From the NCBI RefSeq assembly GCF_900113005.1, contig NZ_FONW01000005.1:124001-188000 (forward strand): a stretch of 64,000 bases of DNA, read 5' to 3'. Below the pieces are notes generated by a model that ran no database searches, had not been told where the DNA came from, and saw only the letters and a list, made by a program, of their open reading frames with translations. The stretch comes from Sunxiuqinia elliptica. Its GTDB lineage: Bacteria > Bacteroidota > Bacteroidia > Bacteroidales > Prolixibacteraceae. This document shows, in pieces, positions 41,328 to 43,867 of the stretch. The first letter of the stretch is position 1. Each line of letters begins with the position of its first letter. Position numbers and translations under genes: made by a program.

Positions 41328-41942
41328 ATGAAAATCATTTGTATCGGACGAAATTACAGTGAACATGTTCGGGAGTTGAACAATGAGATACCGGATGAAC
41401 CGGTTATTTTCATGAAACCAGACTCGGCCCTATTGCGGAACAACGACCCTTTCTACATTCCTGACTTTAGCGAGGATGTTCATTATGAGTGTGAGTTGAT
41501 TGTTCGCATTAACCGCTTGGGTAAAAACATTGAACCACGCTTTGCCAACCGCTATTTCGATGAAGTTGGCTTGGGTGTTGATTTTACTGCGCGTGATTTG
41601 CAAAATATGCTAAAGGACAAAGGTTTGCCTTGGGAGAAAGCAAAGGCGTTTGACCGGTCGGCTGTCATTTCTTCAAGCTTTGTTGCCAAAGAGGAATTAC
41701 CCGATTTAAACTCCATCAAATTTCAGCTAAAAAAGAATGGAGAGTTGGTACAACGTGGCGATTCGGCTTACATGCTTTTTGCCATTGATGAGTTGATTAG
41801 CCAGGTCTCGAAGTACTTTACTCTTAAAATTGGTGATCTGATTTATACCGGAACTCCGGCAGGAGTTGGGCCTGTGGCTATTGGCGATCGCTTGGAAGGC
41901 TTTTTGGAAGGTAAAAAGCTCTTCGATTTCGAAGTGAAATAA
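41328..41942 (+). CDS. Fumarylacetoacetate hydrolase-family protein
   Basis: 204 residues, the single-domain YcgM/FAHD1-like size. Starts KIICIGRNYSEH, with the metal site set by Glu residues in DVHYECELIVRI and an Asp in VDFTARDLQ, then the GTPAGVGP motif near 182. Members hydrolyse acylpyruvates or decarboxylate oxaloacetate. Substrate not assignable. It begins 50 bp after the exonuclease gene, probably cotranscribed. Confidence 0.92.
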   Translation: MKIICIGRNYSEHVRELNNEIPDEPVIFMKPDSALLRNNDPFYIPDFSEDVHYECELIVRINRLGKNIEPRFANRYFDEVGLGVDFTARDLQNMLKDKGLPWEKAKAFDRSAVISSSFVAKEELPDLNSIKFQLKKNGELVQRGDSAYMLFAIDELISQVSKYFTLKIGDLIYTGTPAGVGPVAIGDRLEGFLEGKKLFDFEVK

Positions 41943-41975
41943 TTCAGGAAAAAGGAAAAAAATTTACAATAGAAC

Positions 41976-42022
41976 AAGCCGAATTTTCAAGCCAAGCTAA
42001 CTGGTTTGAGAATTCGGCTTTT
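41976..42022 (+). terminator. Terminator after the FAH-family gene
   Basis: A 10-bp outer stem (AAGCCGAATT / AATTCGGCTT) extended by TCAA/TTGA with a larger loop, followed by a T-rich tail, 33 bp past the stop. Confidence 0.8.
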
Positions 42023-42075
42023 GTGTTTTCTGATTGGCAGGTTTCGAGCGAGCTCATCCTTACTATTGGTGCTGT

Positions 42076-42272
42076 CCTGCAATGGATCGAGGTTCCCTGC
42101 GTTAGTCCGAGGCGTTCTGCGTTGGTTTTTTGCTTTCCTGCGCCGCAGGATTCATTAATGCTATTGCAGGACGGTAATAAAGATCGCAGGGACTTGAAAA
42201 AATGAAGCAGGGCGGCAGCAATAGCTGCAGGAAAGGGGAAAGCTGTTGCAGGATAATAAAAGAAGTCGCAGG
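42076..42272. repeat. Phased pentamer array: CCTGC x4 then GCAGG x7 at 20/21-bp spacing
   Basis: CCTGC starts at 42076, 42096, 42116 (one mismatch, TCTGC) and 42137. GCAGG starts at 42145, 42166, 42186, 42207, 42227, 42248 and 42268, giving steps of 21, 20, 21, 20, 21, 20. The orientation flips at the perfect dyad TCCTGCG-C-CGCAGGA (42136-42150), and the arms are placed symmetrically around it. Sequence between the pentamers is not conserved, and the period is not a multiple of three, so it is not a coding repeat. It lies between the converging FAH and GH20 genes. Function unknown. Confidence 0.85.
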
Positions 42273-42284
42273 AGCCGGTAAATG

Positions 42285-42316
42285 AAAAAGGCTGCCCGTT
42301 TAAGACAGCCTTTTTC
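42285..42316 (-). terminator. Terminator of the GH20 gene
   Basis: On the minus strand a 10-bp stem (AAAAAGGCTG / CAGCCTTTTT) with a 10-nt loop, flanked by T residues, a few bases past the hexosaminidase stop. Confidence 0.82.
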
Positions 42317-42322
42317 GATAAA

Positions 42323-43867
42323 TTATTTGTTCCAGGGAACGAGTTTTGATCGGTAATAATTGATTCCCCAAGTATCGTATTGATTGCCATGAGCAGCTAG
42401 GCGAACTTTGTATTCATCCCAGCTTTTTCCTTCAGTTGGCGACCAGCCAATTTCAGCATATCCAGCTAAACGAGGGAATACCAGGTACTCCATATCGGCC
42501 CGATTGGTAACGGTTTCAGTCCACAGAGGAGCTTCAATTCCCAGAATATTATCGCGGCCAATTTCTTTTTCCAGTTTGACTGGATCCCAGTCGTAGCCAG
42601 TATCTACTTCTACATACCCAGCCCAGTGCAAACCTAGTGGCGACAAAGAGTCGTATTGCATGTCCAGGTAGGCTTTTTTAGCTGGTGACATAATCACTTT
42701 TACACCTTGCTGAACGGCGTTTTTAGCATTCTCAGCACTTGACCAGTATTGAGCAATACTACGCTTATCCAATTTAGCGAGCGTTACTTCATCCCAGCCA
42801 ATCATGGTTTTCCCGTGGGCATAAACGAGGTCTTGTACCCGTTCGATAAAAGGAATGTAGTCTTCTTTTTTGGTTACATGTGATTCATCTCCACCGATGT
42901 GGATGTAAGGGCCGGGAGTTAGTGATGCCAACTCTCCAATCACATCATCGATAAATGCATAGGTAATTTCCTTGTCGGTACAGAGGGTGCTAAAACCAAC
43001 TTCAGTTCCGGTATAAAGCTCCGTGGCTTTACCATCGCAGTTGAGTTCAGCATACGACGCCAGCGCTGCATTGGTATGGCCAGGCATATCAATTTCAGGA
43101 ATGATGGTAATGAAGCGCTCAGCAGCGTAGTTCACCAAATCAGTATATTGTTCCTGGGTGAAGAAACCACCTTCGCCACCGCCAACTTCGGTGCTTCCAC
43201 CAATTTCGGTCAGCTTTGGCCACGATTTAATTTCAATGCGCCAGCCTTGGTCATCAGTCAGGTGAAGGTGTAGAACGTTAAACTTGTAGTAAGCCATCAG
43301 GTCCATAAAGTGCTTCACATCTTCGGCTCCTAAAAAGTGACGGGCTACATCAAGCATGGTGCCACGGAATTCATATTCCGGGAAGTCGTGAATTGTTCCG
43401 GTTGGAATCATCCAATCAGCTTGTTGAACGCTACTACTTGCTATGGAAAGCGGTAACAGCTGACGAATCGTTTGAATTCCGCGGAAAGCTCCTTCTGCCT
43501 TGTTGACTTGAAGGGTTAGCAGTTTTTTGTCGATTTGTAATGCATAGCCTTCATTTCCTAATTCAGAATCATTGGTTGTGGTCAGGAAGATACCTTCAGA
43601 GGGGGCTTCGCTGACCGCTTCGACGGTCAATTGAAAGCCAGTGGCAGGAGTTAGCTTGTCTTGCAGGTATTGGGCTGTTGCTTCAAGGTTTGAGCCTGCC
43701 TGAACATAGATCTTGGTTTGCTCGGATAGTCGAAAAGCTTTCCCGGTAGCCGTAACGGATACTGGCTTGGGAATAACGTTGTTTTGGGTTAAATCGGTTG
43801 GCTCCTCGGGTGCGCAGGAAAGCAACCCAGAGATAATCGCCAAAAGGAGTAAAACGTTTTTGTTCAT
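42323..43867 (-). CDS. GH20 beta-N-acetylhexosaminidase, lipoprotein
   Basis: 514 residues. Leader with lipobox LLSC (Cys18), an N-terminal GH20b-like domain to about 150, then the TIM-barrel: HLTDDQGWRIEIKSWP near 202 and the catalytic Asp-Glu pair in HIGGDESH (Asp327, Glu328). Releases terminal GlcNAc or GalNAc by substrate-assisted catalysis, in the periplasm or at the cell surface. It stands alone and is not inside a SusCD cassette. Confidence 0.95.
   Translation of the reverse strand: MNKNVLLLLAIISGLLSCAPEEPTDLTQNNVIPKPVSVTATGKAFRLSEQTKIYVQAGSNLEATAQYLQDKLTPATGFQLTVEAVSEAPSEGIFLTTTNDSELGNEGYALQIDKKLLTLQVNKAEGAFRGIQTIRQLLPLSIASSSVQQADWMIPTGTIHDFPEYEFRGTMLDVARHFLGAEDVKHFMDLMAYYKFNVLHLHLTDDQGWRIEIKSWPKLTEIGGSTEVGGGEGGFFTQEQYTDLVNYAAERFITIIPEIDMPGHTNAALASYAELNCDGKATELYTGTEVGFSTLCTDKEITYAFIDDVIGELASLTPGPYIHIGGDESHVTKKEDYIPFIERVQDLVYAHGKTMIGWDEVTLAKLDKRSIAQYWSSAENAKNAVQQGVKVIMSPAKKAYLDMQYDSLSPLGLHWAGYVEVDTGYDWDPVKLEKEIGRDNILGIEAPLWTETVTNRADMEYLVFPRLAGYAEIGWSPTEGKSWDEYKVRLAAHGNQYDTWGINYYRSKLVPWNK

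Follow-up and report, generated by a model that had tools for sequence, protein, structure and literature searches.

The array described here lies in a window of 64,000 nucleotides (the whole stretch of Sunxiuqinia elliptica DNA that was analysed, to which plain coordinates refer), between an FAA-hydrolase family gene and a glycoside hydrolase family 20 (GH20) gene that both point at it. From left to right, the features of the site are:

41328–41942, plus strand: FAA-hydrolase family gene, left neighbour, pointing at the array (PF01557, 7.2e-48)
41976–42020, plus strand: terminator-like hairpin with T run, 3′ of the FAA-hydrolase gene and towards the array (terminator scan)
42076–42141, minus strand: left arm of four words reading outward, with GCAGG at 42137, 42096 and 42076, GCAGA, a one-mismatch form, at 42116, and outward steps of 21, 20 and 20
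42137–42149, no strand: centre CCTGC-GCC-GCAGG, the meeting point of the arms (sequence reading)
42145–42272, plus strand: right arm of seven GCAGG (sequence reading)
42285–42315, no strand: AAAAAGGCTG...CAGCCTTTTT, an inverted repeat around an 11-base loop, lying on the GH20 side of the array and ahead of that gene (by eye; beyond the terminator scan's loop limit of 8)
42323–43867, minus strand: GH20 gene, right neighbour, pointing at the array (PF00728, 3.8e-94)

The seven GCAGG words of the right arm start at 42145, 42166, 42186, 42207, 42227, 42248 and 42268, with steps of 21, 20, 21, 20, 21 and 20 bp. On the same strand the left side reads CCTGC at 42076, 42096 and 42137, and TCTGC, with one mismatch, at 42116, which brings the array to eleven five-letter words over 42076–42272. 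An earlier note on this DNA had described the exact step series, an opposite-sense arm of four words with one of them mismatched, and the meeting of both arms at a central dyad, and re-reading of the sequence confirmed all of these, the arms facing each other across CCTGC-GCC-GCAGG. The inverted repeat at 42285–42315 is probably the terminator of the GH20 gene. Terminator-like sites in 41800–42500 numbered 2, versus 0.9 expected in shuffles. A probably spurious ORF of 148 codons crosses the array in antisense (window 41944–42390, minus strand).

The window array is real and not a product of chance. Three GCAGG at 20/21-bp steps gave 5 matches in the window versus 0.00 expected (100 shuffles), and in the own genome (G000) the pattern gave 15 matches in three places, on contigs C10, C13 (the window) and C15, with no match when read backwards. 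With the chance rate computed in this way, as had been suggested, the array stands above the base-composition expectation. The bare pattern loses specificity across the 61 relatives, where 20 genomes matched, low-complexity repeats matched too, and the backward control matched in some.

When the centre plus three words was searched in a genome collection (84,980 species per its description), 104 stretches were returned, most of which belong to other phyla and are frequently GC-rich or made of tandem repeats; these were set aside by hand. The two-armed arrays with unlike spacers are from Bacteroidota, namely Draconibacterium, Sunxiuqinia, Mariniphaga, Maribellus, Mangrovibacterium, Marinilabilia, Ancylomarina and Aquimarina. 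The CCTGC-NNN-GCAGG centre recurs in these other two-armed arrays, where it is visible in the loci, the search pattern itself having demanded it. A two-armed GCAGG array of near-identical 21-bp units in a Desulfovibrio MAG (L066) may be unrelated, possibly a coding repeat. Neighbours were examined at 28 array loci picked by hand from the matches in the own genome, the relatives and the collection, L018 and L131 being one place. The window array is not unique: without a gene of its own, it belongs to an array family with many members in Bacteroidota. Since the arrays occupy many unrelated loci, the nearby dnaN, from which a replication-related role had been considered, looks irrelevant.

At the window site, 25 of 30 loci were readable, the own one included. 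Between the same two genes, one genome of the same genus (G006) carries an array built alike, with two arms and ACAGG as its word; in another (G003) the array is absent. In G001 the contig stops shortly past an apparent transposase gene (by eye); no such array was seen in the remaining readable loci, where the next gene was identified in few. Presence in G000 and G006, absence in G003 and the ACAGG word of G006 together indicate that arrays come and go and that the word can change across the units together.

Words are kept better than spacers between relatives. In three Draconibacterium genomes with an array at an orthologous place (same two flanking gene families), identity was 0.99 for words versus 0.54 for spacers over 34 index-matched unit pairs, which are not mutually independent. 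The spacers, earlier described as free, do vary between units but are not wholly free, as unit position 6 is A or G only (207 distinct units) and an AT-rich tract lies about half a period past the word in 32 of 38 arrays. Relative to the gene, this tract is A-rich in 23 of the 38 arrays, T-rich in 7 and neither in 8; since both strand senses occur, DNA fits better than RNA. Fifteen two-armed GCAGG arrays give 30 arms; counting outward from the centre, 25 of these open with a step of 21 bp and 27 have 20 bp as their second step. The step pattern is thus tied to the dyad, a geometry that drift would hardly produce. Among 255 steps in the 34 strongest arrays, 175 are 21 bp and 66 are 20 bp. In four arrays (L144, L146, L159, L187) two unlike half units combine into a super-period of 41 or 42 bp, and the consensus of 20-bp and 21-bp GCAGG units differs at positions 7 and 8, both hinting at a two-subunit repeat.

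A protein of about 240–247 residues is encoded ahead of the array at 8 of the 28 hand-picked loci, the array lying a few to ~130 bp past the stop codon; a later scan added a ninth gene-linked array (L039) and a gene remnant at L018. The source of L039, with both the family gene and a GCAGG array, is a MAG labelled Rickettsiales, reflecting either horizontal transfer or mis-binning. In the own genome the GCAGG-linked gene is intact (match at C10:845886–846623) and its own GCAGG array follows 6 bp after the stop codon. The protein matched no Pfam family above cut-off. Its AlphaFold model (8 sequences) is all helical with a mean pLDDT of 88.6 and a lower C-terminal tail (about 79, then 59), and had no match at E≤0.001 among PDB folds or in a viral fold library. 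Such arrays or proteins were nowhere described in the literature covered, a body that left out preprints and was sparse in subscription papers. On the basis of sequence and model, the array-linked proteins would constitute a previously undescribed all-alpha family. The family is multi-copy, with 6 matches in the own genome, and was detected in 12 of the 61 relatives (E≤1e-5) and, within the order, in 16 of 393 genomes (E≤1e-20); among 296 genomes drawn from the phylum only the own genome matched at E≤1e-8. A plasmid or phage origin was rejected, the L099 protein, the C10 protein's relative in Draconibacterium orientale, having no match in plasmids or phages, as was a defence origin, three family proteins having none in PADLOC.

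Linkage was scored as a periodic word array within 400 bp of the gene end, at a cut-off score of 21. Of the 73 family gene ends, from 72 loci, 50 had an array downstream and the other 23 showed none; nine of the 73 genes had come in through the array pattern, and without these the count is 41 of 64. Among controls, none of the 39 window stretches scored above 18 and none of the 20 shuffles above 15; of 66 upstream sides, 3 reached 21 or more. Words differ between paralogues of the own genome, where the gene on C10 has GCAGG, that on C12 TGGAA, that on C6 CGTTGG and that on C11 ATTGGC; the C15 gene has a short TTCTGC-type array by eye, and none was found for C19. Words recurring between genomes are GCAGG, ACAGG and TGGAA. 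For TGGAA, the one other word searched, no dispersed array was found in the own genome beyond its own gene, save one seemingly unrelated match.

Gene-less GCAGG arrays were recorded in 13 genomes (the own genome, G718–G724 and G726–G730, with G729 judged by matching G014 contigs, and L070 and L102 outside the search). An intact GCAGG-linked gene is present in 6 of the 13 and an ACAGG-type gene in 2 (G719, G726), the remaining 5 having no linked gene, the remnant of one, or genes linked to other words only. As only 6 of the 13 hold an intact GCAGG-linked gene, gene-less arrays may be relics or may be read by something else. Draconibacterium mangrovi (L049) has a gene-less GCAGG array, and the closest linked gene in its genome (L267) has ACAGG words.

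The residues that vary with the word lie in the C-terminal tail. Among 14 proteins, column 235 alone of 247 separates all three word classes, with H or K accompanying GCAGG (K in L077), N accompanying ACAGG (5/5) and R accompanying YGGAAAG (4/4), and R at 231 occurs only in the YGGAAAG (TGGAA-type) class; for the separation of G from A words alone, 21 of 252 relabelings do as well. Residues 231 and 235 are one helical turn apart in the modelled C-terminal helix. Later-read tails fit N235 for ACAGG (L267, L268, L279) and R231 for the TGGAA type (L278) in 4 of 4 cases, a guess formed from the earlier tails when the words of the four test genes had already been found, and recorded as a forecast only afterwards. 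The L268 array is degenerate (score 18, below cut-off), with ACAGG exceeding GCAGG by 6 to 1. The code does not hold for GCAGG proteins whose tails are short or of another kind (L039, L074, L104, L105, L230); N at 235 is also found with other words (L141, L231), and no single residue was found to mark the ten GCAGG proteins cleanly when long- and short-tailed ones are pooled.

The body of the protein does not follow the word. A tree of residues 1–226 scatters all three words (5, 5 and 4 changes for 5, 5 and 4 rows); many of its forks are weak, with 5 of 16 inner branches starred, and the well-supported branches alone force 3, 4 and 3 changes. Sister proteins can have different words, as in L055/L139 (81% identical, GCAGG versus CTGGAA) and L099/L267 (88% identical, GCAGG versus ACAGG). 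In the long-tailed subfamily, identity over the last 21 residues is 10–33% in six different-word pairs versus 38–81% in four same-word pairs; in other subfamilies it is less clear, 38% and 44% in two different-word pairs versus 44–75% in three same-word pairs. Tail-less pairs gave no tail-word signal, and the tail-less L155 and L158, 86% identical and with the same last window, have words judged different by eye. Because the tail adjoins the array, a joint swap could mimic the code in some pairs. Identity falls around tail and array in L055/L139 and L141/L150, and recombination of tail plus array may explain some word switches; in L267 and L279, both with ACAGG, the tail/array region is no more alike than the body. 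Since residue 235 follows the word and the body tree does not, reading of the word on DNA by the protein is the most likely interpretation, at rather better than even odds.

Conserved words, centre-fixed spacing and a C-terminal helix that changes with the word are best fitted by a protein-binding array. A cooperative array on one face of the helix had been among the roles first proposed; it is now the best fit, although its binding and cooperative parts stay conjectural. With a probability of roughly 0.6, the window array would be a DNA-level binding platform for a predicted all-alpha protein encoded elsewhere in the genome, on C10. According to this model, the C-terminal helix (residues 229–246) would enter the major groove at the word, with 231 and 235 as candidate contacts. 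The words would lie two helical turns apart on one face, with the AT-rich tract about one turn from each, and protein units would sit side by side in two arms leading outward from the central dyad. The complex might loop or bridge the chromosome, or tune the expression of its own gene, and the window array would be a gene-less site acted on in trans by the C10-encoded protein.

The best surviving alternative, itself improbable, is a passive interspersed repeat (MITE- or BIME-like) that spreads and grows by duplication, perhaps helped by REP-associated tyrosine transposases (RAYT), and has no binding partner. The coming and going of the array at the window site (G000 and G006 versus G003) and the near-copied units of some arrays (L102, L104) speak for it, as do RAYT-like genes near 6 of 86 family loci (some places counted twice) and 2 of 20 PQLLE loci versus 0 of 30 controls. 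This RAYT excess, however, is not significant (8/106 versus 0/48, p=0.058) and no such gene lies near the 18 gene-less array loci, and a passive repeat would leave unexplained why words are so much better kept than spacers and why whole-array word switches track a protein residue. As a partner of the array, RAYT is recurrent but weak. Two RAYT-like genes on the far side of gene-linked arrays (L001:815–1438 on the own C10, and L105:1862–2455) match NF047646 at 1.9e-15 and 4.2e-14, both below cut-off.

REP/REPIN elements are described, in the available part of the source, as 20–40-bp hairpins with a GTAG or CGTC tag (PMC3733652), and the parts available of two reports show them, with RAYTs, to resemble the present arrays in being short interspersed extragenic DNA linked to a gene (PMC3733652, PMC2817692). 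The present units differ in consisting of GCAGG plus a variable spacer, with no GTAG/CGTC hairpin and no covarying hairpin, and the array-linked protein is no transposase by any library searched. BrickBuilt, a minisatellite MITE of Porphyromonas gingivalis, consists of contiguous 23-nt units with terminal inverted repeats, according to the accessible text of its report (PMC4596501). By that text it is likewise from Bacteroidota, intergenic, periodic and in several copies per genome, whereas its units have no spacers and no linked protein family is described there (PMC4596501). Units of this type are not those seen here, where the word is kept, spacers differ and units are 20/21 bp.

Somewhat less probable again is that a different, unlinked DNA-binding protein reads the words and the linked protein is a bystander or accessory. 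The 7 of 13 gene-less-array genomes in which no intact GCAGG-linked gene was found would then be accounted for, but both the gene linkage and the word-following residue would have to be coincidence. Least probable is that the array acts as RNA, with word pairs forming a ladder in a non-coding transcript or a 3′ UTR: of the two strands proposed for folding, the plus strand folds at z = −4.1, and the first inverted pair resembles the gene's own terminator in several family genes (by eye), but the minus strand reaches only z = −2.0, index-matched units of the two arms show no significant likeness outside the words (p=0.076, 17 arrays), pairing covariation within units is not strong (highest z 2.4, spacer mini-hairpins suggested by eye being unsupported), both gene-relative orientations occur, the window array lies past a terminator-like site, and no Rfam family matched in the window (gathering score, 4227 families), so that a structured transcript, also raised earlier, is not well supported.

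If the window array is a protein-binding platform, its nearest counterparts are found among replication and partition systems. Plasmid iterons with their Rep initiators, and ParR-parC centromeres, have direct repeats beside the gene of their binder, spaced by about two helical turns in iterons or else grouped in phased clusters, with private specificities. The present arrays are alike in having helically phased direct repeats (20–21-bp steps) beside a gene, that of a putative binder, at the 50 gene ends counted above. Unlike Rep and ParB/ParR, the linked protein falls in no known initiator or centromere-binding family by the Pfam and PDB fold searches. Unlike iteron/Rep and ParR-parC, there are several chromosomal paralogues per genome with different words, the array is mostly 3′ of the gene, and gene-less copies exist.

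The TAACTGA heptamer is reported, in the part of the source available, as direct repeats common to several phyla, with regulators of other families proposed (PMC4679880). It resembles the present words in being short, repeated and intergenic, and present in some Bacteroidetes too; it differs in being one heptamer across phyla, with no linked gene family described in that part of the report (PMC4679880). The arrays do not resemble CRISPR repeats, since the shared word is ~5 bp in units of ~20–22 bp, not a long near-exact repeat with unique spacers.

The PQLLE family of NCBIfam (NF052641) is a sequence relative of the array-linked proteins (best 4.3e-12), but those scanned reach 46.2 bits at best versus the 80-bit cut-off. 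Arrays of ~21/42 bp were found upstream of 6 of 18 PQLLE relatives and downstream of 0 of 18 (score at least 21; L182 and L190 being GC-rich, with a putative reading frame), whereas the arrays of the array-linked family are downstream of the gene. Three other genes of the own genome pass the NF052641 cut-off. A PQLLE gene over cut-off lies at G000:C13:115019–115648, ~8.4 kb left of the window start, with weak upstream 21/42-bp periodicity (score 15, below cut-off). Four PQLLE-like proteins (L186, L187, L192, L199) have an apparent C-terminal fibronectin type III domain (by eye), and 3 of the 4 have strong upstream 21- or 42-bp periodicity.

As for the role of a protein-binding array, we suggest with reservation, as a possibility on the unlikely side, a paralogue-specific (orthogonal) nucleoprotein complex formed at the 3′ end of its own gene and on a few distant arrays. 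At about even odds, the family would be an undescribed Bacteroidota superfamily of all-alpha DNA-reading proteins with a residue-235 code, holding several mutually orthogonal protein-word pairs per genome and distant arrays, that of the window among them, which together form address-specific nucleoprotein hubs. If true, orthogonal protein-DNA pairs whose residue-to-base code can be read would exist as a natural set, made by a family that has no match in Pfam or among solved folds. The block switching of words without change of the protein body would then let the evolution of DNA specificity be watched, and a class of phased intergenic arrays in Bacteroidota would be explained, giving a testable function to unnamed genes.
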